Below, one piece after another: positions 31,401 through 54,085 of a stretch of DNA of 64,000 nucleotides. The notes below the pieces were generated by a model, which searched no databases, had not been told where the DNA came from, and was given only the letters and a program-made list of their open reading frames with translations. The DNA lies in contig CAIIXF020000012.1 of the NCBI GenBank assembly GCA_903813345.2, forward strand, positions 971,318-1,035,317, in the 5' to 3' direction. The translations under genes were made by a program, and so were the position numbers. The DNA is from Owenia fusiformis (taxonomy: Eukaryota; Annelida; Polychaeta; Sabellida; Oweniidae). Within the stretch, counting starts at the first letter, position 1, and every line of letters starts with the position of its first letter.

Positions 31401-34400
31401 TGATAACCAAACCTTAAAATAACTACAATTTTCTTTTGTCTTATAAAAAAAATAAAATAAAAATAACTACAACTTGTGACTGAACTACCTTAAGGCAACT
31501 TTGTCCTGCATTTGAATTAAACTAACTTGTCCTTAGGGTAGTTATGACCTGTGATTCAACTCCACGCCTATATTAAGATATATGTCATTAAAAACAACTA
31601 CAAAATATTAACAGACCAATCTACAAATAGCTACTTCCGGTCATATATAACAGTGCCAAAATTGGAATTGAAAGTTAACGTAGTCTATTGAACTGGAACG
31701 CCTTTCAGAATACAAACAAAAACAAAATTTAAATTAAATTGAATCAACAAACATGTCATGCCGTCTTCAAATTGTTTTGTCTTCCATTATGGTCGATGTT
31801 TTTTTTACATCGAGTGAGAGTCTGAAAAAAACTTTCACACACTAAAGAACAAAACTTTCTACATGTGTAGTACATTGATGCAATATTGAGGAAAATATAA
31901 TGGGATGAAGATTCCCAGGTTTTGAGCACTCTCTGATGAGAAATTCTTTCAAAATCATGCAGTTTTTTACCATTTTGATCACTTTACAAGTGACTTTGAG
32001 AAATATTGCCAAATTTAAAGCCCCTGGTTCTTTAAGCTACAGGCCCATTTCCGAACATTATGAGAAATCAAAATTACGAGACTGGCAATGGCATTTAAGA
32101 GACTCAAGTCAACCATTTAGACCAATATGGTTGGTTGGTCAACTCTTTAAAGCCCAAGCTCAGATGGCACAGCTCCAACATGATGTTATACCATCCCAAA
32201 AAATCACGAACTTAGTATGCCTCATTATTGATGCCTTCACTGTAATACTAACACATATTTCACTCTGTTATCAATAATAGACAGTTTATCTAAATGGTCT
32301 TCAACTAAATATAATGAACTATTCATTGTATTTTAATTCTATTGACAACAAAATTATACAATGACACCAAAAACATGTACAACTAATGTTTCCTCAATTT
32401 GTGATGATTTTCATCCAACAACAAGTAACAATCAGTTCTAGATTTTTCATACAGAGAAGCAGCCTTGATGATTTCAAATTCTTAAATGTATGTGAATTTT
32501 TTTTATTACTGTCTTATGTATATTGTTTATGCACTTTTTCATGGAGTTTGAGCCTAATTTACCTCCTGCTGGGGTAGCATGTAGAAAACACAAAGTAAAA
32601 ACAACTTAAGGATATTTTGGACAAATATTTTGGGCTTTAAATTTCCCAACATCTACAAGTAAAGGTTCAAAATGATCTTATCACGACACATCCCCTCATT
32701 CATTCTTTCGTTATCGCAATAATTAGTTCAACCTGTTGACCCTAACACGCGCACCCTAATTGCGCGCATGTGTATTACATAACATCTTAGGGCAAGAATT
32801 TGATGGATTTTCTCATGGTAATTATCACTCAATTAGTATGTAGTTCTAGTATGATTAATTGAAAGTAATGATGTCATTTGGATAGGTGCATTATTTAATA
32901 ACCAACTTATAATATTGCTTTGTAACCATGGTTCAACTAGAAAACAGCAACTTTACAGAGTAGCAAATCACACTGAAAAAAATGTTGATAAAAAGTGGCC
33001 ATCTTGATAGTTTCTTCTTGAAAATAGCTCTAAGTATCAGCATATAACATTTGAACCAAAACCATCCACTGATATTTGAGTTATCAAAGATTAAGTTTTT
33101 TATGGAAAATGGGGGCCATTTTAAGATTCAGCTGTCATCTTGAAAATTTCTTCCTAAGGAGAATCTATGTTTTATTATGAAAAATGACAGACATTTTGAA
33201 TTTTCAGTGGCCATTTTAAAAATACCTTTTTGGCAGAGCTGTTTTTCCTTAGCCTGCCATTAACCTGGCAATATCCCTAATATTTCACAGAACATCCTTT
33301 GATCAAAATATATACTCACTGTGCCTCTTTTAGCCTCATCTGCAGCAAGCCTCATGGCTGGTATAGCCTCACGTGCCCCTGTCTCAACCATACGTCGTTT
33401 GTATGGGAAATGATGCTGGGCATCCTGCTTGGGTGGGATGGTCGCCTGACCCCCCTCCCTCTCATAGCGGTTATAGGAGTACTGCTCTGCTGCACTCCTG
33501 TAATAATATATACACAGGGTAATGAACTTATTTATAACAGAATTACATCCTGCTTGGGTGGGATGGTCGCCTGACCCCCCTCCCTCTCATAGCGGTTATA
33601 GGAATACTGCTCTGCTGCACTCCTGTAATGTATTGTATTGTATTGTATTGTATATTTTATGCCTAATATTCTGTGTGACTGCATATTCATCATTTATCAT
33701 TATTTGCTTTATTGCATGTCTTGCCAATGTCATCATTGTAAGTATAATAGGGAGCAATAAGAATATTTGACTTGAACTAAATATAACAAGACGCTTTTTT
33801 CTCATTTTGCATGCTACAAATAAAACTATTTACATCTCAATGAAACATACAAAATGGGAAAAATCAATATGTCACTTTTTCTAAATTCATCCCTAGACTG
33901 AGGGTTTAAAGATAGCTGATCAATTTGAATTTAAGATTTTTATACCAAGACACATCCCTGAAAATTCACCCCTATCATAAATGAGCAAAAACAAGAAAAA
34001 TGAGATACTTACACCCACACACCAAGCCAATAACGACATCATGAAATCCAATCTCAGGAAAAATAAAATATGACGTCAATATTCTTAATTGTTATTATAC
34101 AAGACCTTACCTAACTCACAAGGCTGTTAACCTACCATTACATGTGTACATATAGGAGGTACCTTCCCTCTCTATTTAAATCTCATATTTTGAGTTTTAT
34201 TTTAGTTTAATTAATACTCACCTCATATGCCCTGCTATATATAGGTATCTCTGCTATATACAGGGTGTCCAAAAAAACAGGACTGTAAGAAAGTTGAATA
34301 ATTCGGTCAATTTTACATATTTTGCCTTGAAATTTAAGAATTATTTAGTTCATTCAATGTGAATTTTGTTCTGAAAGTTTCATGATAATCGGTCCATTGT

Positions 34401-37400
34401 GTCAAAAACTACAGTACTTTACAAAACATGCTCAAAGTGGGCACTTCTCATCTCTATGCACAAACGAATCCTGCGAAGAAAGTTGTTAATGACCCTGACC
34501 TATACACATCTATGTGGATTGTACATATTGGGGTAGTTATTGCCCTCTTAAGATGGTTAGGGGCCTGTCTGTATACACATTGGGCTTGAGAAATCCCCAA
34601 AGATAAAAATTTGGGGGGATTTAGATCTGGTGAATGAGCTGCCCATATCAATTGCGTTCTGCAACTGATGAGCTGACCACCAAAGCATTGCCTAAACCAT
34701 TTGGCGTGGTATTGGCTTGTTGAAACCACTGCTTATCTCCTTAGATGTCCCTTCTGGTGCTTAATGACCTCCAAAAAATTAGGGTGAGAACTTACTGGTC
34801 CTTGTTTATGGTGATAGCATGTCCCCAGTCACCCTCGAACAAAAAAGTACTGATGATTCCATGTTTCCTCATTGCCACCCAGGCAGTGCATTGTTCAGAA
34901 TGCAATGGATGCTGTAACTCTTCATCAGGAAGATGTAAGCCCCAGTAGCAATTGTTCTTGAAACAAACTTGTCCATTCAGAAAGACATGTGTGCAGGAGG
35001 ATCATCAACAACTTTGTTCGCAGGATTAAATTGTGCATAGAGATGAGAGCTGCACATTTGGGGCATGTTTTGTAAGGAGCTGTAGTTTTTGACTCAATTG
35101 GTAGATAATTGTCAAACTTTCACAACAAAATTCACTTTGAATGAACTAAATAATTCTGAAATTTCAAGGCAAAATATGCAGAATTGACCAAGTTATTCAA
35201 CTTTCTTACGGTCCTGCTTTTTTGGACACCCTGTATGTATTGAACTCTTCACCTAGCAGTGTAGGACTGTAGGTGTATGTCAAGAGGTTCCTGTTCTTTC
35301 TATTACTATTATGAGTTGAGTTAACTTACAGGACCTCTCATATCATGATTTTTAATTTAATCGTGGCATGGTACTGTTCTCCTAGCAATGTAGGTCTTCG
35401 TCTAGGAGGTTCCAGCTCTTTTATAAATATTATGAGTTGACTTACCTCTCACGCTCTGCTACACGTGTGGCATGGTACTGTTCTCCTAGCAATGTAGGTC
35501 TACGTCTAGGAGGTTCCTGCTCTTTTTATAAATATTATGAATTGATTTATCTCTCACGCTCTGCTACATGTGTGGCATGGTACTGTTCTCCTAGCAATGT
35601 AGGTCTTCGTCTAGGAGGTTCCTGCTCTTTTATGAATATTATGAGTTGACTTACCTCTCACGCTCTGCTACATGTGTGGCATGGTACTGTTCACCTAGCA
35701 ATGTAGGTCTACATCTAGGAGGTTCCTGCTCTTTTATAAATATTATGAGTTGACTTACCTCTCACGCTCTGCTACACGTGTGGCATGGTACTGTTCTCCT
35801 AGCAATGTAGGTCTACGTCTAGGAGGTTCTTGCTCTTTTATAAATATTATGAATTGACTTGCCTCTCACGCTCTGCTACACATGTGGCATGGTACTGTTC
35901 TCGTAGCAATGTAGGTCTACGTCTAAGAGGTTCCTGCTCTTTGTATAAATATTATGAGTTGACTTACCTCTCACGTTCAGCTACACGTGTGGCATGGTAC
36001 TGTTCACCTAGCAATGTAGGTCTACGTCTAGGAGGTTCCTGCTCTTTTTATAAATATTATGAATTGATTTACCTCTCACGCTCGACTACACGTGTGGCAT
36101 GGTACTGTTCTAGCAATGTAGGTCTACATCTAGGAGGTTCTTGCTCTTTTATGAATATTATGAATTGACTTACCTCTCACGCTTAGCTACACGTGTGGCA
36201 TGGTACTGTTCACCTAGCAATGTAGGTCTACGTCTAGGAGGTTCTTGCTCTTTTATAAATATTATGAGTTGACTTACCTCTCACGCTCTGCTACACGTGT
36301 GGCATGGTACTGTTCTCCTAGCAATGTAGGTCTATGTCTAGGAGGTTCTTGCTCTTTTATAAATATTATGAATTGACTTACCTCTCACGCTCGGCTACAC
36401 GTGTGGCATGGTACTGTTCACCTAGTAATGTAGGTCTACATCCTAGGAGGTTCTTGCTCTTTTTATGAATAATATGAATTGACTTACCTCTCACGCTCGG
36501 CTACACGTGTGGCATGGTACTGTTCACCTAGTAATGTAGGTCTACATCCTAGGAGGTTCTTGCTCTTTTTATGAATAATATGAATTGACTTACCTCTCAC
36601 GCTCAGCTACACGTGTGGCATGGTACTGTTCACCAAGCAATGTAGGTCTACATCTAGGAGGTTCTTGCTCTTTTATAAATATTATGAATTGATTTACCTC
36701 TCACGCTCGGCTACACGTGTGGCATGGTACTGTTCACCTAGCAATGTAGGTCTACGTCTAGGAGGTTCTTGCTCTTTTTATAAATATTATGAGCTGACTT
36801 ACCTCTCAGGCTCGACTACACGTGTGGCATGGTAGTTTTCTCCTAACAATGTAGGTCTACATCTAGGAGGTTCTTGCTCTTTTATAAATATCATGAATTG
36901 ACTTACCTCTCACGCTCGGCTAGTCGTGTGGCATGGTACTGTTCTCCTAGCAATGTAGGTCTACGTCTAGGAGGTTCTTGCTCTTTTTATGAATATTATG
37001 AGCTGTCTTACCTCTCACGCTCAGCTACACGTGTGGCATGGTACTGTTCACCTAGCAATGTAGGTCCACGTCTAGGAGGTTCTTGCTCTTTTATAAATAT
37101 TATGAATTGACTTACCTCTCACGCTCAGCTACACGTGTGGCATGGTACTGTTCACCTAGCAATGTAGGTCCACGTCTAGGAGGTTCTTGCTCTTTTATGA
37201 ATATTATGAGCTGACTTACCTCTCACGCTCGACTACACGTGTGGCATGGTAGTTTCTCCTAACAATGTAGGTCTACATCTAGGAGGTTCTTGCTCTTTTA
37301 TAAATATTATGAATTGACTTACCTCTCACGCTCGGCTAGTCGTGTGGCATGGTACTGTTCTCCTAGCAATGTAGGTCTACGTCTAGGAGGTTCTTGCTCT

Positions 37401-40400
37401 TTTTATGAATATTATAAGCCATCTTACCTCTCACGCTCAGCTACACGTGTGGCATGGTACTGTTCACCTAGCAATGTAGGTCCACGTCTAGGAGGTTCTT
37501 GCTCTTTTATGAATATTATGAGTTGACTTACCTCTCACGCTCGGCTACACGTGTGGCATGGTACTGTTCTCCTAGCAATGTAGGTCTACGTCCAGGAGGT
37601 TCTTGCTCTTTTATGAATATTATGAGCTGACTTACCTCTCACACTCAGCTACACGTGTGGCATGGTACTGTTCTCCTAGCAATGTAGGTCCACGTCTAGG
37701 AGGTTCTTGCTCTTTTATGAATATTATGAGTTGACTTACCTCTCACGCTCGGCTACACGTGTGGCATGGTACTGTTCACCTAGCAATGTAGGTCCACGTC
37801 TAGGAGGTTCTTGCTCTTTTATGAATATTATGAGCTGACTTACCTCTCACGCTCAGCTACATGTATTGCATGGTACTGTTCACCTAGCAATGTAGGTCTA
37901 CATCTAGGAGGTTCTTGCTCTTTTTATGAATATTATGAGTTGACTTACCTCTCACGCTCAGCTACACGTGTGGCATGGTACTGTTCTCCTAGCAATGTAG
38001 GTACGATTAGGAGGTTCCTGCTCTTTTTATAAATACTATACATTGACTTACCTCTCACGCTCAGCTACACGTGTGGCATGGTACTGTTCACCTAGCAATG
38101 TAGGTCTACGTCTAGGAGGTTCTTGCTCTCTCTGCTGCTGGAATGTCTCTCTGTAGTCTGCAGCAGTTGATCTCTCTCCCTAAATAGGACAAAATATTAT
38201 ATCATATATCTTAAACAATGAAACCTGTATATCAAAACTGTTTGGAATATTGGAAACTTGATGAAAATCTATTGAATAAGACAGCTTCTTTCTATACAAA
38301 ACTCAGAATCTGATCAGTATCACAGACGATTCCTTTCTATTGAAAAAGACAGATTCTTTCTATACAAAACTCAGAATCTGATCAGTATCACAGACGATTC
38401 CTTTAGCATACCTGATAAACATGTTCCGGGCCAGGAGCTGTGTAGACCCTCGGTTGGTATGGTCCCCCTGGTGCTGCTATGGGGACCTGATATCTCTCTG
38501 TGGGGTAAGGGTATCCCCCAGGACGTGACATAGTTGACCCAGGACTTTGGGTCCGAGGACGCTTGTATGGTGAGGACACTTCATGACCTGGCCCTGTTGG
38601 ACCCCTGTTAATAAATCATTAAAATTATTATTTGGTTAATATTTCACTCAGACATATTCATAAACATCATCAGGGAGTACCACAACAACAAAAAAAAAAC
38701 AGGAAAAAAAACATTTGTAAAATTTGTTGAAAAAAACATTAACAAATTACATGTATATGTTGAAATGCTTAGAATGCACCATATTCAGTGTCAATTTTAA
38801 AAATTTTCAGAGGGTGAGACTTACCCCCTTTTTGGGGCTTGCTTCACTCGCATCGCAGTGATGCAAACCCCAAAAATTTGTACCCCCCTTGACATTTGCT
38901 GGCTACGTCCCTGACTAGAGTAGACATTAATTCTATTTTGAAAAAGTTAATTTATATACAAACTGAAAAGTCAAAGATTGAAGCGTTTCTGCTCAAAGGT
39001 AGCATTTACATTTACAAAGGATAAAGAAAAAGATTTGAAAATAACTTATTAAATACAACTATTATTTTAAAGTACACCTCAAAAGTATGTTTCTTGTTAC
39101 AAATTTGTTAAACATTGATGGGAGCATCTAAACACTTGGTTTATATTGACACATGGATAGCTGGAGGTTCTACTACAGGCTGATTACTAGTATATCACGT
39201 ATAGAGTAAAATTCCTATTCATTTCTTTGTGCCTTCTGCACATTGTCATTGATCTATTTGCAAAAATAAGGCATACTGTTATTATTTGACTCACTGCCAA
39301 ATATGGATAAAGGTATTGAAAATCACGTTTCTTCTTAAATTACTTTATTGTGTTGAAAGCATCAAGACTAAGCAAGGACATCATGGATCTTCAACATCAC
39401 TGACATGGGAACAAGAGTTCATCCCCCTCCCACTCGCAAAGTAATACTTAAAAAACACAGACACAGGAATAAGAGTTTATTCCCCTCCTACTCACTCTGT
39501 ATAACTTAAAAACACAGACACGGGAACAAGAGTTCATCCTCCTCCCACTCACTATGTATTACCTAGAAAAAAGACAGGCTCCTATCTCGGGACATCTCAG
39601 CCTCTACTCTAATTGCTCATATCTCCGTCACTGAGTTGTGTCATACATTATCTTTTGTCCCGATGCAAGGTTAAGACATTAAATTGTATTTATGGTAACT
39701 CACCAATTCTTAAATCAGCATAATTGTGTGAATAACATTGGAAATGGGGACGAAAAAACAATCACTTTTGCATTCACGACATTTCGATGTCCTTTTACAG
39801 CGACCTATATAATATCCACAACGAGTGTCTCATTATTTTAAGAATTGTATTTTTATAATCACAAATTACAAATCTCAATTCTAGTATTTAGATATATCTG
39901 TGGTGATGATATGAACTTATTATAGTAGTCTCGGTATATTTCTCATAGTATATCGTATACTATTAGCTTTTTTTGATTTCTAAAAAAATCGTCATGATTT
40001 TCCTACCAAAATTCACGTCCAAGAAATGATCATTGAGTAATCCGGCCTTTAAAAATCAAAACTTTGTAGGTTTGTAATTCAAAAAATTGAAAAAAACAAT
40101 AAATAAGTGTGAAAATGTTAAATTAAATGTGTAATTTAATCAAATAATATTAATTATATCTGCTGTGATTTGATTGGTCAACTGCAGAGACATCTTTCAA
40201 ACAAGATGGCGATTGGATGTCATTGTCGCGACCGTGGGTCGCTCGAAACAAACCTTAGAGATTTACGGTTACAGTATTACAACCAGATTGTTTCCTCAAT
40301 ATTTATATACATAATCTGAGAATTTTAGAGAAGATATTGAGCTTTAAGAGAAGAGATTTGAATGTTTACGAGGTGAGCCTGTATTTTTTTACATTAGCTA

Positions 40401-41267
40401 TACAGTGAATGAGGGGAGGTGGTGCCCGAGAGGGTGATTTCAATCTTCCTGGCCCTGCGTTCAACATAGCCAGCAAACAAGACAACACAGATTAATAATA
40501 AGACCTGCCATATTTAAATAGACCTAGAAGGTTGAAAGAGTGAGACACAATAATACAGTGGCCACTGGCAATCTCAAACTCGTCAAAGAATATTACATGT
40601 AGGGCGAAGGGGTGTAACATCGACACCATTTTGGGGTAACTTCGACATGTGGGGTAACTTCGACACCTTATTGTTTATTTGCTCTAATTTCCGATCTAGG
40701 GGGAAGCCATGTTTTTTTTCTCGCATGGATCGAGAGATCTCGCGAGATTTTAATTTTTCCAGAAATCAAACATGGCGGAAAACGGAAATTCTACTTCTAA
40801 TACATAACTGTCGAAGTTACCCCGTCTATTATGTCGACATTACCCCACACGTCGACATTTCACCCCTTTGCCCTAGACATCTATTGTTGGTTGAGGTTCT
40901 GTCCCAAAACGTTTAGGTCATTGATCCCATTCCCAGTAAGGAAAGAAATAGAACACTGCTATATGATAGAATCGATATGACTGCAATGGAAATTTGGAGA
41001 AATCGTCAGACAAATCCTGGGCGAGGCCAAAGATGGGGAAATATGAAAAGCTAAATCTTCATGGAGTGGAAAAATAAAAAAAGATGAAAAAATAAAAATT
41101 GGGGAGAATATAAAAGGTAATTGCGTCATTTCGTTGGAGTGAATCGTTCTGAGTCTCGATTTAATAATGTCTTCATATATCCATAAGTACCTCCGCAAAA
41201 TGATAAGATTGAGTATTCTCTAGATTAGCTGTAATTACCTGTCATTTGGAGGTCTATTGCTAGACAT
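1..41267 (-). CDS. NCOR1: Nuclear receptor corepressor (NCoR/SMRT family), 32 coding exons, 3' end outside window
   Basis: This is a scaffold corepressor that in known animals recruits HDAC3, TBL1 and GPS2 to unliganded nuclear receptors. Family-specific signatures seen: S-K-E-E-L-I, I-I-Y-A-E-N-R-K-K-A-E-K-A-H, P-L-Y-N-Q-P-S-D-T, Q-H-P-K-N-F-G-Y-I-A-S-F-L-E-R-K (SANT1), K-A-Q-C-K-N-F-Y-F-N-Y-K-R-K (SANT2), G-S-I-T-Q-G-T-P repeats and CoRNR-like boxes. Exons were placed by GT–AG sites and homology; phases agree at all 31 joins (8,366 nt coding seen). The start exon reads MSSNRPPNDR, like the family's M-S-S-S-G-Y-P-P-N-Q. The frame is open at base 1, so the C-terminus is missing. Invertebrates usually have one gene equally related to NCOR1 and NCOR2, so the symbol is nominal. 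Confidence 0.96.
1690..4505. repeat. 44-bp minisatellite, about 60 copies, in NCOR intron 31
   Basis: Units read like CTATTCATAAGGAATCTATT…CACTGAACAATTTCAG. Two variants (TCTATTC and TTATCAT types) form separate blocks, and ~480-bp higher-order blocks (3534–3990 and 4010–4440) are near copies. Interrupted at 3434–3533 by a copied exon edge. Confidence 0.97.
3434..3533 (-). pseudogene. Copy of NCOR exon 31 3' end with splice donor, inside the minisatellite
   Basis: Bases 3456–3533 repeat the last 78 nt of exon 31 (4525–4602) with only two or so differences, together with the CTTAC donor (3451–3455) and the ATATGTTA flank. It has no acceptor of its own. It shows the exon edge was swept into repeat amplification. 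Confidence 0.93.
4525..4668 (-). CDS. NCOR1: NCOR exon 31
   Basis: 144-nt exon encoding G-S-S-D-S-R-S-N-E…S-P-R-S-P-R-T-G-S-Q-S-M-L-A-A-S-H-Q. Acceptor ATTTAAG|GATC, donor TCAA|GTAAGT. The intron starts almost at once with a 44-bp minisatellite that holds a second copy of the last 78 nt of this exon. Confidence 0.82.
4995..5152 (-). CDS. NCOR1: NCOR exon 30
   Basis: Encodes S-P-V-M-L-G-Q-D-E-R-E-I-I-K-V-A-R-T-G then Q-A-S-P-Q and R-A-S-P-Q-G. Acceptor TTTTTAG|ATCC, donor CTGCAG|GTAAAA. Confidence 0.83.
5427..5540 (-). CDS. NCOR1: NCOR exon 29, S-P-rich
   Basis: Continues the R-S-P repeats (S-P-A-P-A-K-S-P-A-L-G-Q-S-P). Acceptor TCTGCAG|GTCA, donor CAAG|GTTAGA. Phase 2 on both sides. Confidence 0.82.
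5750..5970 (-). CDS. NCOR1: NCOR exon 28, S-R-S-P-rich
   Basis: Contains repeated (S)-R-S-P units separated by Q/I/P (S-R-S-P-S-Q-R-S-R-S-P-I-L). Such serines are typical proline-directed kinase sites (inference). Acceptor CTTACAG|GGGA, donor CTAG|GTAATT. Confidence 0.85.
6128..6417 (-). CDS. NCOR1: NCOR exon 27
   Basis: Low-complexity S/P/N-rich, ending A-Y-Q-G-P-W-K-L-K-R-V-L-E-Q. The donor CAG|GTTCTC is weak; the choice is supported by phase with exon 28. Confidence 0.8.
6708..6809 (-). CDS. NCOR1: NCOR exon 26, second CoRNR box and Q-A repeat
   Basis: Encodes E-H-I-D-A-I-I-Q-Q-D-Y-S-K-K-K then repeated Q-A. With exon 25 this reads I-T-L-G-E-H-I-D-A-I-I-Q-Q-D-Y, matching vertebrate I-T-L-A-D-H-I-C-Q-I-I-T-Q-D-F, a receptor-binding site. 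Confidence 0.94.
6993..7095 (-). repeat. Three decayed copies of the NCOR exon 25 donor junction
   Basis: TTCACT(T/C)AC(C/A)AAGGGTG occurs near 6993, 7024 and 7069 as well as at the real junction (7103–7120). On the minus strand, two of the copies give CTTG|GTGAGTGA or CTTG|GTAAGTGA, still consensus donors. Confidence 0.8.
7113..7230 (-). CDS. NCOR1: NCOR exon 25
   Basis: Ends S-D-S-R-A-I-T-L, leading into the CoRNR box of exon 26, as vertebrate H-R-L-I-T-L-A-D-H leads into its box. Donor CTTG|GTAAGT. Three degraded copies of this donor junction follow in the intron. Confidence 0.92.
7362..7542 (-). CDS. NCOR1: NCOR exon 24
   Basis: Proline/glutamine-rich, with a short repeat P-P-G-A-Q-T-A-P-P-G-A-Q. 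Acceptor TTAATAG|GTCG, donor CCAAG|GTAAAA. Confidence 0.85.
7811..10169 (-). CDS. NCOR1: NCOR exon 23, large exon with I-T-Q-G-T-P repeats and first CoRNR-like box
   Basis: 2,359-nt exon. Three G-S-I-(T/S)-(Q/H)-G-(T/I)-P repeats, then D-F-L-T-A-Q-Q-M-Q…R-L-S-P-R, are NCoR/SMRT signatures in the repression region. Near the end, A-A-N-L-I-D-A-I-I-E-H-Q-I fits the CoRNR box (I/L-x-x-I/V-I) that binds unliganded receptors. R/E/Q-rich helices (H-E-R-E-I-R-R-Q-Q) lie between. The ATG at 10140 is internal. Acceptor CTTTCAG|CTCA, donor CCTGG|GTAAGA. Confidence 0.96.
10412..10753 (-). CDS. NCOR1: NCOR exon 22
   Basis: Opens G-P-Q-G-D-R-D-R-G-S-H-H-E-S-D and ends with R-D-L-I-H-S-A-I-E-R-N-L-T-L, a short hydrophobic helix-like segment. 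The ATG at 10700 is internal methionine, not a start: the frame is open across the acceptor. Confidence 0.88.
10947..11162 (-). CDS. NCOR1: NCOR exon 21, proline-rich
   Basis: Low-complexity P/D/T/K-rich segment ending S-A-T-M-S-A-D-E-G-P-H-S. Acceptor TTTCAG|ACAA, donor ATAG|GTAAAT. A mariner-type end and a 20-bp minisatellite lie in the intron just upstream. Confidence 0.88.
11194..11475. repeat. Mariner-type terminal repeat followed by a 20-bp minisatellite
   Basis: TA then CAGGGTGTCCATAAAGTCTC (11192–11213) is a typical mariner-like end; no matching right end was found. From 11266, about ten 20-bp units (ACTCGCCAGATGAACTGCCA and variants) follow. The long frames across them are repeat artefacts. 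Confidence 0.85.
11688..11847 (-). CDS. NCOR1: NCOR exon 20, acidic stretch
   Basis: Dense in D, E and S (S-D-E-D-I-S-S-S-D-E-D-N-G-E-D-N), as in the acidic region following SANT2 in vertebrates. Donor CATG|GTAGGT. Confidence 0.9.
12261..12403 (-). CDS. NCOR1: NCOR exon 19, SANT2 main part
   Basis: Encodes G-L-K-E-H-G-R-D-W-E-T-I-A-N-L-V-G-T-K-S followed by A-Q-C-K-N-F-Y-F-N-Y-K-R-K. SANT2 reads histone tails in the family. Donor CGA|GTAAGT. Confidence 0.97.
12404..13029. other. NCOR intron 18, repeated intronic DNA
   Basis: Contains a ~120-bp tandem duplication (GTTGAAGTTGTTA…GACTGTAGAATTCTTGAC near 12456 and 12580). AATAAATGTTAAAAAGGAGC recurs near 12768, and a mariner-like CAGGGTGTC end lies at 12909. 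No coding signal. Confidence 0.6.
13030..14274. mobile_element. TTAA-flanked (piggyBac-like) MITE, copy A, carrying another MITE
   Basis: Ends AGGCCCCATGTAAAGTTTAA and, inverted, AGTCCCCGTCTAAAGTTTGA; flanked on both sides by TTAA (13026–13029, 14275–14278), the target signature of piggyBac. About 830 bp without the inner insertion, matching copy B at 27407–28238. No transposase, so non-autonomous. Confidence 0.85.
13518..13929. mobile_element. Harbinger-like MITE inserted in the TTAA MITE
   Basis: 412 bp with ~50-bp terminal inverted repeats (GGGGAGGCATCAAAAG…). TTA is duplicated at both sides (13515–13517, 13930–13932). The uninterrupted site in copy B has a single TTA at 27896–27898, which proves the boundaries. 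The 3-bp TTA duplication fits PIF/Harbinger. Confidence 0.88.
14473..14526 (-). CDS. NCOR1: NCOR exon 18, SANT2 start
   Basis: 54-nt exon encoding S-R-W-T-D-E-E-M-D-K-A-K-K, the opening helix of SANT2 (vertebrate S-R-W-T-E-E-E-M-E-V-A-K-K-G). Its 5' part and acceptor are copied about 96 bp upstream in the intron. Confidence 0.95.
14527..15387. repeat. NCOR intron 17 with copied exon 18 acceptor and short tandem repeats
   Basis: TCCATCTAGATGTGTCACTG through TTATCTACAACAAAATTATA (about 14601–14650) repeats the exon 18 acceptor junction at 14504–14545. Near 15082–15140 a ~23-bp unit (TGTGGTGGTATTCATGGTAT) is repeated. Otherwise nothing coding. Confidence 0.75.
15388..15498 (-). CDS. NCOR1: NCOR exon 17
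   Basis: Encodes E-L-T-D-E-I-T-K-C-C-V-A-C-I-N-R-I-A-R-K-V. Three cysteines (C-C-x2-C) may extend the preceding cluster. It then runs into a P/E-rich link to SANT2. Donor GAAG|GTATGT. Confidence 0.82.
15917..16032 (-). CDS. NCOR1: NCOR exon 16, cysteine cluster part 2 and basic patch
   Basis: Continues C-P-V-P-T-C-K-T-P-K-R-K-V-K-R-L-R-P-L, giving two more cysteines and a strongly basic stretch that could be a nuclear localisation signal. Donor ATGG|GTACGT. Confidence 0.85.
16033..16556. other. NCOR intron 15, no feature seen
   Basis: AT-rich intronic sequence with two related ~30-bp stretches (GTGTATACGAGGCGACCATT, GTGTATACAAGGGGTCCATT). Nothing else recognised. Confidence 0.5.
16557..16734 (-). 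CDS. NCOR1: NCOR exon 15, cysteine cluster part 1
   Basis: Encodes L-H-N-C-A-V-C-K, then S-R-P-I-T-K-S-H-C-S-Q-Y-Y-G-L, then R-V-C-S-S-C-R-C-R-S-V-R-R-R-Y-T. Paired C-x2-C motifs suggest zinc binding. I do not recall such a module between the SANT domains of human NCOR1. Two AG acceptors 3 nt apart are possible (exon end 16734 or 16731), both in frame. Confidence 0.85.
17057..17181 (-). CDS. NCOR1: NCOR exon 14, acidic linker
   Basis: Encodes S-K-D-E-A-T-D-E-V-K-M-E-V and E-K-T-G-D-A-E-E-T-K. It corresponds in place to the K/E-rich linker of vertebrate NCoR. Donor AAAAG|GTAATT. Confidence 0.82.
17182..18449. other. NCOR intron 13, no gene seen
   Basis: AT-rich. A 93-codon frame at 17690–17971 (plus) has no recognisable motif or splice support. 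A CACGTGAC E-box-like site lies near 17466. Confidence 0.5.
18450..18574 (-). CDS. NCOR1: NCOR exon 13, linker
   Basis: Charged linker (K-K-E-K-D-E-V-V, V-K-E-E-P-K-S-P) after SANT1. Acceptor TATCCAG|CCTA is pyrimidine-poor, but phase agrees on both sides. K-E-E-P resembles a SUMO-type motif (inference only). Confidence 0.8.
19118..19690. mobile_element. TA-flanked mariner-like MITE
   Basis: Ends CACTCCCCTTCATAA and inverted CACTCCCCTCCATAA, with TA at both sides (19116–19117, 19691–19692). Inside is a ~140-bp tandem duplication (ATTACCCAAATTAAA…GGGATAATGCTCA) and an inverted pair GACGATTCTCGGTTTGGAGA. No transposase. Confidence 0.8.
19969..20237. repeat. Purine-rich minisatellite (GATTGGGAAAG)
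   Basis: Irregular repeats of GATTGGGAAAGGTTGGGAAA on the plus strand. A long strand-biased purine run able to form triplex-type structure. The 160-codon minus frame through it is an artefact. Confidence 0.85.
20256..20563. mobile_element. MITE with GGTGAATTCGTACGATCC-type ends
   Basis: The left end GGGGTGGTGAATTCGTACGA and the inverted right end GGGGCCGTGAATTCGTACAG match, as do the inner ATCCGGATAAATTT blocks. About 308 bp, non-coding, ending 45 bp from the exon 12 donor. Confidence 0.7.
20608..20721 (-). CDS. NCOR1: NCOR exon 12, SANT1 end
   Basis: Encodes T-V-E-E-C-V-Q-Y-Y-Y-H-S-K-K-S-E-N-Y-K-Q, matching vertebrate S-V-P-D-C-V-L-Y-Y-Y-L-T-K-K-N-E-N-Y-K. The basic tail follows. Donor CAG|GTGAGT. 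Confidence 0.96.
21150..22245. repeat. Composite repeat: ~130-bp tandem units with ATGGCGGCCAT cores and an ACGG microsatellite
   Basis: Five or six units of AGTGTCATTAGACAGTGTGC…CAAATATGAACAAAATCGCT…GAGTTATAGTAAAA, each ending in ATGGC(G/A)GCCATTTTTC. (ACGT/ACGG)n follows at 22151–22196. Outer ends CGAATCCCATCGAAC and GTTCGATGGGATAA are roughly inverted, so the whole may be one non-autonomous element. Confidence 0.8.
22570..22803 (-). CDS. NCOR1: NCOR exon 11, deacetylase activation domain and SANT1 start
   Basis: Covers A-V-I-P-P-V-L-L-D, the N-G-L-I-E-D-S-M motif and N-V-W-T-L-P-E-K-E-T-F-K-E-K-Y-L-Q-H-P-K. This is the first SANT (DAD) domain, which in the family binds and activates HDAC3 with inositol phosphate as bridge. 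Ends S-F-L-E-R-K|GTAGGT. Confidence 0.97.
22806..22935. repeat. 24-bp minisatellite
   Basis: Five units of GGAGTCATGGATAATCACATGTGG directly beside the exon 11 acceptor (22804–22805). Confidence 0.9.
23214..23603. repeat. ~98-bp tandem repeat, four copies
   Basis: Units of TTCCATGCGCCACATTACCT…GCAAAAACGTGTGGATGATG…CAATATTTTGTTTTT, very similar to each other, suggesting recent expansion. The 108-codon frame is an artefact. Confidence 0.95.
23604..24777. other. NCOR intron 10, with a cluster of GATTGG motifs
   Basis: No coding signal. From 24610 to 24770 there are five ATTGG sequences (inverted CCAAT), several as CTGATTGGTT, spaced 20–50 bp. Confidence 0.5.
24778..24871 (-). CDS. NCOR1: NCOR exon 10
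   Basis: Reads A-R-S-D-V-E-M-E-Q-I-I-E-G-L-H-E-Q-E, equivalent to the vertebrate A-R-S-E-H-E-I-S-E-I-I-D-G-L-S-E-Q-E. Donor GAG|GTATGT. Confidence 0.95.
25299..25471 (-). CDS. NCOR1: NCOR exon 9, deacetylase-activation region
   Basis: Encodes E-R-Y-D-Q-L-M-Q-V-W-L-K-K-I-E-R-I-E-N-N, then T-R-E-F-Y-E-R-I-F-P-E-I, matching the vertebrate residues just ahead of the deacetylase activation domain. Donor CAAG|GTTAGT. Confidence 0.96.
25902..25968 (-). CDS. NCOR1: NCOR exon 8
   Basis: 67-nt exon encoding H-M-I-F-K-K-R-L-M-L-H-F-K-K-R-H-Q-A-R-K-I, matching the vertebrate K-L-I-L-F-F-K-R-R-N-H-A-R-K. The frame is fixed by the split lysine codon from exon 7. Confidence 0.93.
26129..26204. mobile_element. 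Very short TA-flanked mariner-type MITE
   Basis: 76 bp: TA, CAGGGTGTTAAAAAAGTCTC… and the inverted end GACTTTGCGGACACCCTG, TA. The ends belong to the same family as 11194 and 34261. Confidence 0.8.
26351..26415 (-). CDS. NCOR1: NCOR exon 7
   Basis: Short exon reading L-T-F-Q-P-L-Y-N-Q-P-S-D-T-A-V-Y-H-E-N-K-R, the hallmark P-L-Y-N-Q-P-S-D-T segment before the deacetylase activation domain. Donor CGCAA|GTAAGA. Confidence 0.95.
26601..26799. mobile_element. TA-flanked MITE with CAGGGTGAC ends
   Basis: 199 bp bounded by CAGGGTGACG and AGGTCACCCTG with TA on both sides (26599–26600, 26800–26801). Non-coding. It ends about 30 bp from the exon 6 donor. Confidence 0.75.
26832..27014 (-). CDS. NCOR1: NCOR exon 6, coiled coil and Y-A-E-N-R-K-K region
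   Basis: Begins Q-Q-L-E-E-Q-A, completing the coiled coil, and includes A-Q-I-I-Y-A-E-N-R-K-K-A-E-K-A-H, nearly identical to the vertebrate I-I-Y-D-E-N-R-K-K-A-E. Donor GGA|GTAAGT. Confidence 0.96.
27407..28238. mobile_element. TTAA-flanked (piggyBac-like) MITE, copy B (uninterrupted)
   Basis: 832 bp, TTAA at 27403–27406 and 28239–28242. Closely matches copy A (13030–14274) along its length, apart from A's inner insertion. It ends about 20 bp from the exon 5 donor. Confidence 0.87.
28260..28445 (-). CDS. NCOR1: NCOR exon 5, coiled-coil start
   Basis: Contains K-A-S-K-E-E-L-I-N-S-I-S-R-I-D-R-E-I, the start of the conserved coiled coil that in vertebrates binds GPS2/TBL1, ending F-K-K-K-Q. 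Donor CAA|GTAAGA. A MITE ends only about 20 bp past the donor. Confidence 0.95.
28446..33319. other. NCOR intron 4, mostly unassigned
   Basis: AT-rich, no supportable gene. At 30462–30491 there is a perfect hairpin (CATGGGCTTTCAA/TTGAAAGCCCATG) between direct repeats of TATTCATGAAACCA. A G/C-rich patch at 29785–30030 (GGGCC runs) looks like part of an interspersed repeat. A 113-codon frame at 31936 has no recognisable domain. (The stretch belongs to the introns on either side of exons 4 and 5.). Confidence 0.5.
33320..33497 (-). CDS. NCOR1: NCOR exon 4, residues about 117–176
   Basis: Acceptor ATTACAG|GAGT, donor GCACA|GTGAGT. Encodes S-A-A-E-Q-Y-S-Y-N-R-Y-E-R then an alanine/arginine-rich helix-like end. 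The 5' half with its acceptor is copied about 125 bp upstream in the intron (33546–33629). Confidence 0.9.
33546..33629 (-). pseudogene. Copy of NCOR exon 4 5' half with acceptor
   Basis: 84 bp nearly identical to 33421–33504, differing at one base that leaves the encoded tyrosine unchanged (TAC/TAT). It keeps TTACAG|GAGTGC but has no donor; read-through soon meets a stop in the intron. It lies upstream of the true exon in transcription order. Confidence 0.93.
33630..33653. repeat. TATTG microsatellite
   Basis: Short (TATTG)n tract just outside the copied exon 4 edge. Confidence 0.85.
34261..35233 (-). mobile_element. Mariner-type DNA transposon, decayed
   Basis: Ends CAGGGTGTCCAAAAAAACAG and inverted CAGGGTGTCCAAAAAAGCAG, extended similarity to about 40 bp, TA at both sides (34259–34260, 35234–35235). 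The minus frame at 34454–34729 includes W-A-A-H-S-P-D-L-N-P, the transposase C-terminal motif (W-P-x-x-S-P-D-L-N-P). At 973 bp it is shorter than a full ~1.3 kb element, with the transposase broken and the N-terminal region unrecognisable. Confidence 0.87.
35340..38051 (-). repeat. Tandem array of ~104-bp units made from NCOR exon 3 and its donor
   Basis: About 25 intact units plus a decayed one at the left, abutting true exon 3. Each carries the last ~75 nt of exon 3 (E-P-P-R-R-R-P-T-L-L-G-E-Q-Y-H-A-T-R) and GAGAG|GTAAGT, then ~27 bp of intron. Most donors are intact; the unit at 35547 has AT and that at 35858 has GC in place of GT. In-frame read-through meets TAA at the donor. Units lack the native acceptor; the AT-rich spacer ends AAAAG|AGCA. 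Confidence 0.95.
38052..38179 (-). CDS. NCOR1: NCOR exon 3, parent of the tandem exon array
   Basis: Acceptor TATTTAG|GGAG, donor GAGAG|GTAAGT. It encodes a Q-Q-Q-R-E-Q-E-P-P-R-R-R-P-T-L-L stretch that matches the family's L-R-R-R-P-S-L-L motif near the N-terminus. Its 3' half, donor and about 27 bp of intron are repeated about 25 more times immediately downstream in the intron. This copy alone has the full 5' half and a proper acceptor, so I take it as the functional exon. Confidence 0.92.
38412..38604 (-). CDS. NCOR1: NCOR exon 2, residues about 10–74
   Basis: Acceptor TTAACAG|GGGT and donor CAG|GTATGC. Proline/glycine/tyrosine-rich, with a basic Y-K-R-P-R-T patch that may aid nuclear localisation (inference). 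This region is disordered in the family. Confidence 0.9.
38605..40600. other. NCOR intron 1, first part
   Basis: No gene seen. 38820–38915 looks like a fragment of an interspersed repeat. 39390–39560 holds three ~70-bp repeats (CACAGACACGGGAACAAGAG). Confidence 0.5.
40601..40874. mobile_element. MITE with ~67-bp inverted ends
   Basis: AGGGCGAAGGGGTGTAACAT and inverted AGGGCAAAGGGGTGAAATGT. Each arm contains repeated GGGGTAA(C/T)(T/G)TCGACA. No coding. Confidence 0.78.
41239..41267 (-). CDS. NCOR1: NCOR exon 1 (start codon)
   Basis: Start ATG at 41267, donor CAG|GTAATT. It encodes M-S-S-N-R-P-P-N-D, matching the N-terminus of vertebrate NCoR in position and composition. The next exon continues in frame. 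Confidence 0.85.
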
Positions 41268-43001: not shown

Positions 43002-46000
43002 CTGAAATCAGAAATAACAATACTAAACGAAGTCCTTATTTTAGTTATACATTTTGATTTTCCCAATTTGGCAGTTGTGCATAATTTATGATCATGAATT
43101 AAAGTTTGGATTGTTATTGGTAAAAGTACTGTAATATTTGTTTTGGTTGTCATTATTTTAACATCATTTTCTATGTTACATATTTTCTGAATCGTTTTTG
43201 CATCAATATAATCCATTTTTACCTGTTTACAACTTTTAACCAATGAGACTCTTCTGGTTTCACTCTTGCTCTCTGATGAGAATGACTTTGATGAAGATTC
43301 ATTCATTCGGGAAATTGCGATCCTTGTATTTGGAATGTGATGCCAGGATCTCCCTAAAGATGGCAGCACCTGTCCTGTATCGTTGTTGGCCCCAGTTGTA
43401 TTATTTGTAATCTGTGAATAAGAGTTTAGGTTTTAGTTTGTATAAAATTAAATAAGAACTAGTATCAAATTTGAAATGTTTCATATGATCTGATTAAATA
43501 CATATCCCCATGACAAAATGTTTTTATATTAGAATGGTTATTTTTGTAATGATTTGATTTTAATTGAACAAGGGGATTCATTCTACACACATGCCATCTT
43601 TATATATATCTGCACATTATTATTACGTTGGAATTTAGAATTTGGAAGAAGAATTAAAAAAGATTTATTAGCACACCTTTATTAGAAGAAACTATGAATT
43701 AGCATATTATTTGTAATATGACAAATGTGTTATTGAACTTATTCTTAATGCCAATTTTATTTTGTAGAACATTATTGATTTCTCAATTGGCAAGTGTGTT
43801 TTTAGTAAGATAGGCTACCTGAATGAGATAAATACTGCTTGTTAATAATACATTGTACATAAAGTGGCTATAGCAAATACATTGTACATAAAGTGGCTAT
43901 AGCAAATACATTGTACATAAAGTGGCTATAGCAAATGCATTGTACATAAAGTGGCTATAGCAAATCCATTGTACATAAAGTGGCTATAGCAAATACATTG
44001 TACATAAAGTGGCTATAGCAAATCCATTGTACATAAAGTCGCTATAGCAAATGCATTGTACATAAAGTGGCTATAGCAAATCCATTGTACATAAAGTGGC
44101 TATAGCAAATCCATTGTACATAAAGTGGCTATAACAAATACATTGTACATAAAGTGGCTATAGCAAATGCATTGTACATAAAGTGGGTATAGCAAATCCA
44201 TTGTACATAAAGTGGCTATAGCAAATCCATTGTACATAAAGTGGCTATAGCAAATCCATTGTACATAAAGTGGCTATAGCAAATACATTGTACATAAAGT
44301 GGCTATAGCAAATCCATTGTACATAAAGTGGCTATAGCAAATCCATTGTACATAAAGTGGCTATAGCAAATCCATTGTACATAAAGTGGCTATAGCAAAT
44401 ACATTGTACATAAAGTGGCTATAGCAAATACATTGAGGCTAAATATTCATTCTTTGAGATTTTTAAATTAAACCTGCACATCGCTCCAAAACGCGATATT
44501 TTGACATATATTGTTTTTACATTTTCAAGCTCTAAAATAAAGTTTCTGTAAATAAAAATTGTTTTTTTCTGTGTCGTATCAAAGAACAATCATTTAGTTA
44601 AAAAAGAAAAGAAACGTGCATGCAGGATTCGAACCCGGGCCGCCTGCGTGCTAAGCGAGAATTCTAACGCTGGGCTACCAATTCATTATGAATGATGAGT
44701 GTAATTAAACGCTACTTATTTTAAATGCTATAATTCGGAAGTGACGTCACGTTCTTAATTTAGAAACCTTCCAAAAATCATATTGTCGTCGACAATCGAA
44801 GCAATTCAATGAATAATCGTTGTAATGACACATTTATCATGAGTATTTGTACACAAGATTTGCCCCATTTGTTCATCATTCTATAATCTTTCATTAAGCT
44901 CAAAATGATAAAGTTCACCCCCGAAACAACCCAAGATTGCGTTTTGGAGCGATGTGCAGGTTTAAATTTTCAAGTAAATTCCCAGTGGGCCTTTAATAAA
45001 AAGGACTCACATACCAGAACAGCTGTAGAGCAGTCTGTAGCCAATGACTTCAAAATGCGACTCAAATGAATCATGTGACCATGGCTGTCTGTCTGGGCAC
45101 CTCCTAATATGGGCAAAATCACTGCAGCTACGGAATCAACAATGATCAGCTTTAGGTTGCTGTGAAATGGTGCTGACTGGAAGCAGAAATTAGCATTCAA
45201 TCATGGATTCTCTGTGAACTCTACAGAAATTTGTAATACAAATTCCAATAATGGTCAAATAAACATTTTCAGTTTTTGTGTTTTTCAAATGATTATTTAT
45301 ATGTGTAAATGGTTTTTAATGGGAGGAATGACTGTAATCCCATCTATGTTTTTAAATTCTGATCAATTTCTGTTGAATCATTGCCAGTTGAACAAAGTTT
45401 TTGAAAGGTGAACACATATAAGTGAATTGAGCTAAGAACTGATCTAGTATTTTAAAGATTTAGGACATATTATAGTTACAACCATAAACAATGAGTGATT
45501 CTGATGAACAATCTCAGGATGAAGGTGGTACAGTCATGAGATTTTGCACAAATTGCAAAAATCCAGTAAAAGGACATATTGGACCATGTGGTAAAAAATG
45601 TACCAATTCTATGGATAATAATACAGATGAAGATTCTCAGAAACTAGGTAGTTGTTCAACTGGTCAGACAACCATAGAAAATAAAGGAATAATATTGGCA
45701 ATACAAGAACTGGGACGCCAGGTATCATGTGTAAACCAAATCATTACACAAGTAAAACAGGATAATGATACACTTACATCTACATACAAGGATTTATATA
45801 TAACTGTACAATAACTGAAAACACAGCAGGCTAATATAGGACAAAGGTCACATATAAAACCAATGGAGCATCATCTACCTGGGCAGTCTAACACTGGGCA
45901 ACCTACTCACAGTACAAGTCAACAGCAGCTTTCCACTCAAGCGCAACAATCCTCAGATACAATGCTATTGAATACTGGAGCTCAGTTCAATAGCAGCCCA

Positions 46001-49000
46001 GTTGGAGTTTCAAACAAGATCAGAAAAGCCATAGAAACAGGTGAATATGTGAACCTTGCAGTCGAAATGTTGAGGCATGCGCAGACCTCTATTTAGTGAT
46101 ATTTTCATTTCAAATATGGCGGCCAATCCGATGTCTGACGACCCTTACAAAGAATCTAGGCGGTTTGCATTTTTACCTCCTGTGAAATAACAAGTGGAAT
46201 TTAGTAGTTGTTTTGTGTTTTATTATCATTCTGAATCGTAATTCTATGTGATGTGGTGTTGAAATGTCAGCAGAAATACATATCCATACGATGATCGAGT
46301 GAATCAGATAACAGATTTTTCGAAAACCCGTCTCGTGCTAAGAGTGTAAAAACTTGTATTAACATGCTCAAAAGTGCCAATGTGCACATCAATGTCAAGC
46401 TAAATCAATGTTGTGTCTAAAACAGGTACCCGATCTACACAAAACAGCTTGTCATTCACGTATACACGCTTAGCAAACACGGCGAAATGACCTGAATCTT
46501 GGAATTTCGTTCGAGAGCTAGTAATGTTTGCTCCGGTCTTCGTCATAAGTGTTCATCAGACTTCACGCATGCGCAGGAGAAAAACCATCAACCAATAAGG
46601 TTTATAAATCAATTTTGCGCATGCGCCTTACAACGGTAAAGAAATTCGTATTTATAAACGAACCAGTTTGAGATAACCCGATATCAGTCGGAGAAATCTG
46701 ACGATCTACGAAACTCACTTCAAAAAATCAAATGCGGACTGACGGCGTATTCTACTATGTTTGGATCTAAGATCTTCAGTATAGATGAAGTCTTTTATGA
46801 TCTTTCGAATGAGGTAAGTCTTTAGTTCGAAAGACAATCGTATCAACTTGAACAAAAGTTGAGTTTTGACGAAAAATTTCAACATGCGCAGAAGTCCCAT
46901 TTTCGTTGTACCATATTGACTGCTTGTTGACCTGTTACCCAGCAATCTGTATAATCAGAATATAAACAAAAACACTGACCAGATTATAGTGAATGAAAGT
47001 GGAGAAATCAAAGTGAAGAAAGACAAGAAACAAAATACTATTGAAAACATAATGCAATGGATGCAAGCATGGAATATATACGAAATGGTAGTCATGGGAA
47101 AATACCCTTCAAAGTACATTGAGTTAAGTGCGTATAGGGCACATATACAGGAGTGTGATAGGAAATATACATGGACTGCGGTTTCTCTCTATGACAACAA
47201 ATTCAGAATGAAACTAGGGGACATGAAATCATATGCATTTAGCAGCATTGATACATTTCTATATACAACAACACTAGATGCAGCTGCCACAAAAACATCA
47301 GGACGTTGTTTCCGCTGTGGCCGAAATGACCACCAGGTAGCAGCCTGTACTTTTCAAGCGACCAACACGATGGAAAAGACTGAGAATGAAAAAACGACTA
47401 AAGCAACGCAGGCTCGAAACATTGATGCAGAAACATGCTGGAAATATCAATTCTCAGAATGTAAATTTGGCGACAAATGCAGGAGAAAACACATTTGCAA
47501 GCAATGTGGATCAACATCCCCCTTTATCACTTGCGAATGCAATCCCCGTCGATCCAAAAAATCCGCCACTGATTCACCAGCTAAGGCCACTTAACGTTGA
47601 CGCCCTCAAAGAGGGACTTAAATCGCATCCCAATCAAGATCTTGTTAAAAAATTAGTCTATGACGCAGAACATGGAGTACGAATAGGATATAATGGACCA
47701 CGTTCTTCTAGAATACATCAGAATTGGAGATCAACAAAAATACACCAAACTGCAGTAGAAAAAAGTATCATAAAAGATCTTCTCAAAGGAAGAAAAGCTG
47801 GACCATTTTTATCAAAGCCATTTGAAAACTTTGTGGGGTCACCCATGGGCGCATTCTTAAAAAGGCGCTCGTCGAAATGTCGTGTTATTCATGATCTATC
47901 ATGGCCCCCAGCAGGGTCGATCAATGACTTTATCTCAAAGGAGGAATATACGTGTCAATACATGGATATATGGGATGCGATTTCACATGTAAAATCTTGT
48001 GGCAGCAGATGCTTGATGGCAAAAGCTGACCTAGAAGATGCGTTTAAGCATATAATTGTACATAAAGATGATTGGGAACTGTTGGGTAGCACTTATGAAA
48101 TAAGAAATGATGATGGGAATTATGTCACAGTGTATATGGTAGACCAAGTACTGCCATTTGGCTTAAGGAGTTCTCCAAAAATATTCTGTCAATATGCTGA
48201 TGCCTTGGAGCACATTATGTTACAAAATGGTGTTACAGTTAGCGAGCACTACATGGATGATTACTTTACTTGTGGTCCCGCAGACACAAATGAGTGTCAG
48301 AATAACTTGGATATAATGATGGACACATGTAATAAGATACATTTCACTGTGAATCCGAGCAAAGTGACAATACCTAGCACCACTCTAGAATTTTTAGGAA
48401 TGATAATTGATTCAGTGAAAATGGAAATCAGAATTTCTGATGAAAGACTAGCTGATATTCTATCATTGTTGAAGGAATGGCGTTATGCATCAAAAAGGAC
48501 AAAGCGTGATATGCTCTCATTGATAGGAAAGTTAACCTTTGTATGTCGTGTGGTTCTAAGTGGAAAAACATTCCTGCGTAGGATGATTGACACCTCAACA
48601 AAAGCAAAATTTCTCCATCATAAAATCAAGATCACAGCAATGTTTAGATCAGACATTGAATGGTGGATATCATATTTACCCACTTGGAATAGCATAACAT
48701 TGTTCTATGAGGATGACTGGTCTTCTAACATAGATATGAAGCTGTACACAGATGCTTCAAAACATCATTACGGAGCGTACTTCAACGGACGATGGCTAAA
48801 TGGATCATTTAGCATATCCGAATCTGATCAGCATATCACATGGAAGGAACTTTATGCACTGGTAGTTGCTATAGCTACCTGGGGACAATTTTTAACCACA
48901 AAGAAAGTGCTGATGCATTGTGACAATTTAGCAGTGGTTCATATTGTGAACAATGGTACAAGTAAAAATAAACACGTCATGGCACTAGTGAGAGCACTTT

Positions 49001-52866: not shown

Positions 52867-54085
52867 AGTTCATTCACGAGCGACTACTGGTAAAACTACA
52901 ATCCTACGGAATAACAGGAAAATTACTAGCCTGGACGAGGTCTTTTCTTACAAACAGGGCACAGAGAGTTTCGGTAAATGGTAAAGTATCAGAGTGGGCC
53001 CCTGTAACCTCTGGTATACCTCAGGGAACTTGCCTCGGGCCGACCCTGTTTGCTGCCTTCATCAACGATTTACCTGAAGCAACAAAGAACGAGATACTCA
53101 TGTACGCTGACGATGCAAAACTTTACGGCAAAGTTAAAACCGAAGAAGACAAAAGAACACTACAAAAGGATCTGGATAATATGTCTAAGTGGTCAAATAA
53201 ATGGCAGTTGCCTTTTAATACCGCTAAATGCAAAGTAATGCACCTTGGACATGGAAATGATCAACATAAATATACCATGAATGACCAGATCTTGGATATC
53301 ACCAAAACTGAAAAGGACCTTGGAGTCAATATCGACAATAATCTCAAGTTCCACCAACACGTTGACCTATCAGTCTCTAAAGCCAATAGCATCCTTGGAA
53401 TAATAAAAAGAACTTTCTCCCATCTGGACAAAACAATCCTCCCTCTTCTCTACAAATCACTTGAAAGACCCCACTTGGAATACGCAAACAGCGTATGGAA
53501 TCCTCACCACAATATGGATATTGACAAGCTAGAAAAGGTCCATAGACGAGCGACAAAACTTGTACCAGAAATTAAGGACATGAATTATGGGGATAGGCTA
53601 AGATACCTGAAGCTACCATCACTCCTGTACAGAAGGAGACGAGGGGATCTCATCCAAACCTACAAAATCATAAAAGGTCTTGACAGGATTAATATCACTG
53701 ACATTGCTGAAAAATCTGAAGCTCATAGAACCAGAGGAAACACTGAGAAGCTCAATACAAGATACAGTAGACTGAATGTCAGGAAGAATGTTTTCGGAAA
53801 CAGAATTGTGAAAGACTGGAACAATCTCCCACAGACTGCAATAGATGCTGACAATGTCAACCAGTTCAAGGCGCAAATTGACAAACACTTCCACAACCTA
53901 AAGTACCACTACAACTAGATGACAGCCCCTTTAACCCATGTCCAGTGAGCTTTCAAGAAAACAACCCCCACCCCCACCTTTTTCCCACTTAGTAAGACCT
54001 TACATATAACAAGATCTGGATAATATAGGATTCTTCCTTCTTCCAGAAGAAATGGTATACAGGTATACAGGTATACAGGTATAGT
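52867..54085 (+). mobile_element. CR1-like LINE, 5'-truncated
   Basis: An open frame from about 52867 to 53918 covers the RT core S-G-I-P-Q-G-T-C-L-G-P and M-Y-A-D-D-A, the thumb K-C-K-V-M-H-L-G and the C-terminal H-R-R-A-T-K-L region, ending in a stop at 53916–53918. Endonuclease and upstream parts are missing. The 3' end has an 8-bp repeat (ACAGGTAT)3 at 54056–54085, like CR1-group tails. Confidence 0.87.

Follow-up and report, generated by a model that had tools for sequence, protein, structure and literature searches.

Why should the end of an exon, together with its splice donor, stand about 26 times in tandem behind the true donor of a gene, and would the copied donors matter for the expression of that gene? 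The original prediction for this locus left the choice between donors, micro-exons or a splicing sink that affect the output of an NCOR gene, and an ordinary minisatellite that had started at an exon edge.

The host gene and the copied exon end

The window, meaning the whole stretch of 64,000 nucleotides of Owenia fusiformis DNA analysed here, contains a minus-strand gene in which a Pfam search indicated a GPS2-interacting domain (PF15784, 28239-28478, E 5.6e-15), with a weaker continuation of that match below Pfam's cut-off (26787-27059, E 0.00047), and a Myb/SANT domain (PF00249, 12225-12452, E 4.3e-10). A minus-strand gene with both domains fits an NCOR-type corepressor. Its first four exons, placed by frame and splice signals, join into 176 open codons. 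These exons and the sites that belong to them are as follows.

41239-41267, minus strand: coding exon 1; its frame joins exon 2 across GT/AG, start codon inferred
38412-38604, minus strand: exon 2; open frame and splice signals
38052-38179, minus strand: exon 3, 128 nt long and containing RRRPTLL; frame open when joined with exons 2 and 4
38046-38051, minus strand: native exon 3 donor GTAAGT, from the sequence
33320-33497, minus strand: exon 4; frame open when joined with exon 3
33546-33629, minus strand: incomplete copy of the start of exon 4 that includes the acceptor AG; 77 exon nt and 7 intron nt, one mismatch

Exons 2, 3 and 4 had no significant Pfam match of their own, and they can be tied to the NCOR-type gene through the frame and the motif of exon 3, RRRPTLL, which we take to resemble the RRRPSLL of vertebrate NCOR. 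A literature check on phosphorylation of NCOR1 at serine 70 returned nothing on it, the serine 70 found being that of NPM1. A 68-bp tandem duplication (38268-38404, 97% matches) starts 7 nt into intron 2, immediately behind the donor of exon 2. Upstream of the NCOR-type gene and on the same strand lies a Rad51-family open frame (50803-51063, E 6e-12). The window also contains an open frame of 1402 aa (55840-60048) with reverse transcriptase, RNase H and integrase domains, presumably a Gypsy-like retroelement by its domain order, and two more open frames with reverse transcriptase domains (47341-49170 and 52869-53918).

Tandem Repeats Finder (TRF) placed the array at 35363-38129 with a period of 104, 26.5 copies and 92% matches. 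Its score of 4481, or 4558 when the array is taken with a 209-bp period, is the highest in the window. Further large tandem arrays are found at 1691-4504 (44/132-bp units) and 43847-44435 (29-bp units), and neither overlaps a placed splice junction. The unit joins the terminal 77 nt of exon 3 to 27-28 nt of intron 3 and is repeated head to tail, as in a minisatellite; its 104 bp lies at the upper limit of the size range often given for minisatellites, or slightly beyond it. As 25 full copies adjoin the true exon 3 donor directly, the predicted count of about 26 copies of about 104 bp next to the true exon agrees with our cutting. The prediction was also right that the exon end had been copied, the copied part being 77 nt and not the proposed 75 or so; it varies from 74 to 78 nt among units with indels. 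The core of the array lies where it had been predicted, but a decayed continuation reaches beyond the claimed end to about 34093. The parts of the array, from the exon outwards, are given below.

38024-38128, minus strand: native exon-end unit U0, read from 38128 to 38024; unit-by-unit cutting
38052-38128, minus strand: exon part of U0, the 77-nt exon end that was copied; unit alignment
35419-38023, minus strand: full tandem units U1-U25, 102-106 bp each, with a donor-like site closing each exon part; TRF and unit alignment
35297-35418, minus strand: rearranged unit U26, in which the donor is lost and reads GTCCTG; alignment, and a unit-profile score of 62 bits
35234-35296, minus strand: leading portion of U27, a decayed unit; it scores 18.8 bits (E 6e-05 over the window), rising to 23.0 bits once the flanks of the inserted element are joined
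34261-35233, no strand assigned: 973-bp inserted element inside U27, with inverted ends and TA on each side; from its ends and flanks
34093-34164, minus strand: oldest recognisable unit, strongly decayed, AGGTAAG kept; 11.4 bits, E 0.011 (profile match 34164-34124), alignment score reached in 0 of 500 shuffles

The donor sites of U1-U25 read GTAAGT in 19 copies, GTAAGA in two, GTAAAT in two, and GCAAGT and ATAAAT in one each. GT is thus kept in 23 of the 25, in line with the claim that nearly all donors are intact, and every copy with an intact donor has AG/GT, as GAGAG/GT (the slash marking the splice junction). The native acceptor was not copied, as had been noted, because the units begin 51 nt inside exon 3. 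Intron 3 also contains the incomplete copy of the start of exon 4. This copy, which has a pyrimidine share of 0.47, precedes the true acceptor by 124 nt, and its use as acceptor would lead to a stop; together with the array this means that both exons bordering the intron have been partly copied into it. An Rfam gathering search gave no matches, an exact 26-nt unit pattern had none in viral_contigs, and the literature matches listed (titles and abstract starts, with subscription papers mostly outside) contained no description of the array.

Divergence, turnover and decay of the units

If the copied donors or the copied coding part were of use, they could be expected to be better kept than the rest of the unit. 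Diversity among U1-U25 was 0.063 in coding columns versus 0.093 in the spacer, and the coding part was less variable in direction only (permutation P 0.17). The donor 9-mer, at 0.059, was not clearly less variable than the other columns (P 0.45), and minor-allele cells numbered 78 of 1844 in the coding part, 7 of 150 at donor positions +1 to +6 and 36 of 525 in the spacer. Preferential conservation of the donors, looked for in U1-U25 by diversity and minor-allele cells, was not seen. The coding part is well kept apart from scattered changes, as had been stated, but this holds almost equally for the spacer. Indels are found in the coding part of 5 of the 25 copies and shift the frame in 4.

With regard to the selection test on the motif that was proposed together with the prediction, distinct coding variants leaned synonymous (11 of 29 versus 7.3 expected, P 0.046), variant cells did so less clearly (44 of 79 versus 29.4 expected, P 0.064) and the comparison of coding part with spacer was not significant; both synonymous-test P values are too generous because the units share ancestry. 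None of the 29 distinct coding variants is a substitution to stop, and fixed differences between exon and array number zero in coding columns and two in the spacer. The synonymous lean and the lack of fixed coding differences could reflect exchange with the exon or weak constraint, and exchange with a constrained exon would give the same synonymous lean.

Mean difference between units is 8.4 aligned positions. Units U6-U9 are repeated as U10-U13 with 11 differences over the four units (order-shuffle P 0.0025), which hints at unit turnover by block duplication, while neighbours elsewhere in the core resemble each other no more than expected at random (P 0.21); the correlation of difference with separation is positive but weak (r 0.14, P 0.05). 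It is very improbable that the unit number has been inflated by the assembly: the near-identity of these two blocks is what an artefact might leave behind, but the average difference between units, the decayed outer units and the inserted element show a real and old array.

A profile built from U1-U25 and searched over the window gave scores that fall away from the exon, from 105-120 bits in the native and full units to 62 (U26), 18.8 (U27) and 11.4. The element inside U27 has inverted arms of 265 nt that are 83% complementary, and we take it to be mariner-like; its open reading frame (34454-34732) had no Pfam or PDB match. Joining its flanks lengthens the U27 match and lifts the score to 23.0 bits. 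The stretch just past the element is not significant when aligned alone (its score was reached by 72 and 58 of 500 shuffles), and so its placement in U27 rests on the joined-flank match. The profile and the shuffles on the decayed outer units therefore indicate that the array formerly extended to about 34.1 kb and has been decaying away from the exon.

Possible use of the copied donors and micro-exons

The native exon 3 donor splits a codon after its second base, and read-through gives AGG TAA. From any of the 26 downstream donor positions (25 units and the decayed U26 site), translation would end at codon 118, since the native donor itself reads AGG-TAA. At GAG/GTAAGT, 8 of 9 positions match CAGGTAAGT, which ties for the best of the nine donors placed in the gene, several of them by signal only. 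Since 19 of the 25 copied donors match this U1 snRNA consensus as well as the native one does, they may compete with it. From this it could be proposed that the copied donors compete for U1 and divert a share of the transcripts to decay, so that the array is a sink that sets the NCOR level and the unit number tunes the share. The donor match and the common truncation speak for such a sink, but exon 3 would grow to 231, 336 and 440 nt with the nearest downstream donors and much further with later ones, and very long exons are disfavoured by exon definition. The donors are also not preferentially conserved. A donor-supplying minisatellite has been reported for human IFI6 (passage in PMC4526556) and gives the sink a precedent; on balance we consider it unlikely. 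More doubtful still is a working dial, in which the near-perfect donor row, perhaps together with in-frame RRRPTLL-type micro-exons of 57-60 nt, would set the amount of full-length NCOR, with unit number differing between individuals and exchange with the exon keeping the units alike.

Other roles of the donor row were considered. Masking of donors by RNA folding was rejected, as the unpaired probability was 0.006 in the native donor versus 0.002-0.143 in the copies, which is no useful difference. With regard to the idea that U1 protects the transcript from early polyadenylation, intron 3 has four A[AT]TAAA sites, none of which is within U1-U25. Recursive splicing through AG/GTAAGT was also dismissed, the sequence approaching the AG not being pyrimidine-rich.

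The weak micro-exons proposed through AAAAG/AG did not hold, as the frame is open in none of the 25 units, and the variant AAAAGAG/C is open in only 3. The AAAAG/AG site has a mean pyrimidine share of 0.53 (range 0.47-0.59), nearly that of the weakest of the 12 placed acceptors (0.59), and it ends in AAG, unlike the placed acceptors, all 12 of which end in CAG or TAG. Of 311 stretches that run from an AG (up to position 38000) to the donor that follows it, 57 are open. Among these is a candidate that starts at an internal AG, CCTCCTAG/A, in frame in 20 of the 25 units, from which occasional splicing to the unit donor would give exons of 57-60 nt and add copies of the PTLLGEQYHATRVAERE segment, 9 of the 20 pieces retaining the full RRRPTLL. 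The open frame and the synonymous lean are consistent with such a ladder of micro-exons, but the pyrimidine share before this AG has a mean of 0.35 (24 sites) versus 0.59-0.88 at the 12 placed acceptors, and the approach is purine-rich with earlier AGs present. Adjacent units moreover leave between them just 27-28 nt plus about 17 nt, which is too short for an intron, and therefore only units further apart could be joined. Taken together, this makes the ladder highly unlikely. Least credible to us is that whole units are removed as new introns, with donor and acceptor both furnished by the tandem AG/GT copies. AG/GT is indeed present wherever the donor is intact, and in potato RdRp an intron was gained by duplication across an intron-exon border, but the copies here are already within an intron and AG/GTAAGT lacks a pyrimidine-rich approach (7 of 17 bases, counted by eye for the native site).

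Origin of the array and known systems

The array is likely to be a minisatellite that arose when a tandem duplication spanned the exon 3/intron 3 border, and its donors are likely to be by-products and at most leaky decoys. The fallback in the original prediction, an ordinary minisatellite from an exon edge, thus emerges as the best supported explanation, given the P values for coding part versus spacer and for the donor 9-mer, the four frameshifted copies, the block duplication and the decay at the far end. The founding step would have been a tandem duplication crossing the border in the NCOR-type gene, for which microhomology is plausible because AGAGC stands both inside exon 3 at the unit start and at the first unit junction. 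The array then appears to have expanded, with turnover of its units through exchange and the duplication of blocks, as its sequence indicates, while the far end decayed and took up the element. Exon 3 would normally be defined through its own acceptor and the first donor. If a downstream donor were used, the longer exon would meet the TAA of the native donor, a stop present in the sequence itself, and the truncated messages would probably be cleared by nonsense-mediated decay; thus the array would act at most as a leaky decoy, with a slight negative effect on output. Nothing here points to retention of the array by selection.

Turri et al. (1995) reportedly described a minisatellite with multiple splice donors in human IFI6 (also 6-16 or G1P3). 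Two downstream repeat units of the IFI6 minisatellite act as splice donors, according to a passage in PMC4526556, and this minisatellite appears to be the nearest precedent. The two loci share a tandem array next to an exon with repeats that supply donors, and here the array starts at the exon end with GT kept in most copies. They differ in that the units of IFI6 are short, about 12 bp, keep the frame and are used, whereas the 104-bp unit here is three quarters exon, its donors are putative and their downstream use would make a stop. In potato RdRp, a new intron arose through a duplication that spanned an intron-exon border; this resembles the present case in crossing an exon-intron border and copying splice signals, and the segment duplicated here contains AG/GT. 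That was a single acceptor-side duplication with a spliced new intron, whereas at the present locus it is the donor side that stands in about 25 copies inside an intron, and any new intron would be hypothetical. VNTR6-1 in TERT intron 6 is likewise an intronic tandem array of tens of units and is linked to splicing of its gene (PMC11830802), the splicing link being that of VNTR6-1. Its unit is 38 bp, with no exon-edge derivation mentioned in the opening of its abstract, in contrast to the 104-bp exon-edge unit here. What is new relative to these precedents, judged by the unit and its reading frame, is the large exon-derived unit with a built-in stop.

The locus offers a natural test of splice-site choice, with 19 donors that carry the nine bases of the true donor placed behind it in steps of about 104 nt, in a corepressor gene that is presumably still working. 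The usage of these donors would bear directly on exon definition and on the preference for the first donor. The array may also illustrate how the growth of a repeat at an exon edge is tolerated when the wrong choice meets a built-in stop.
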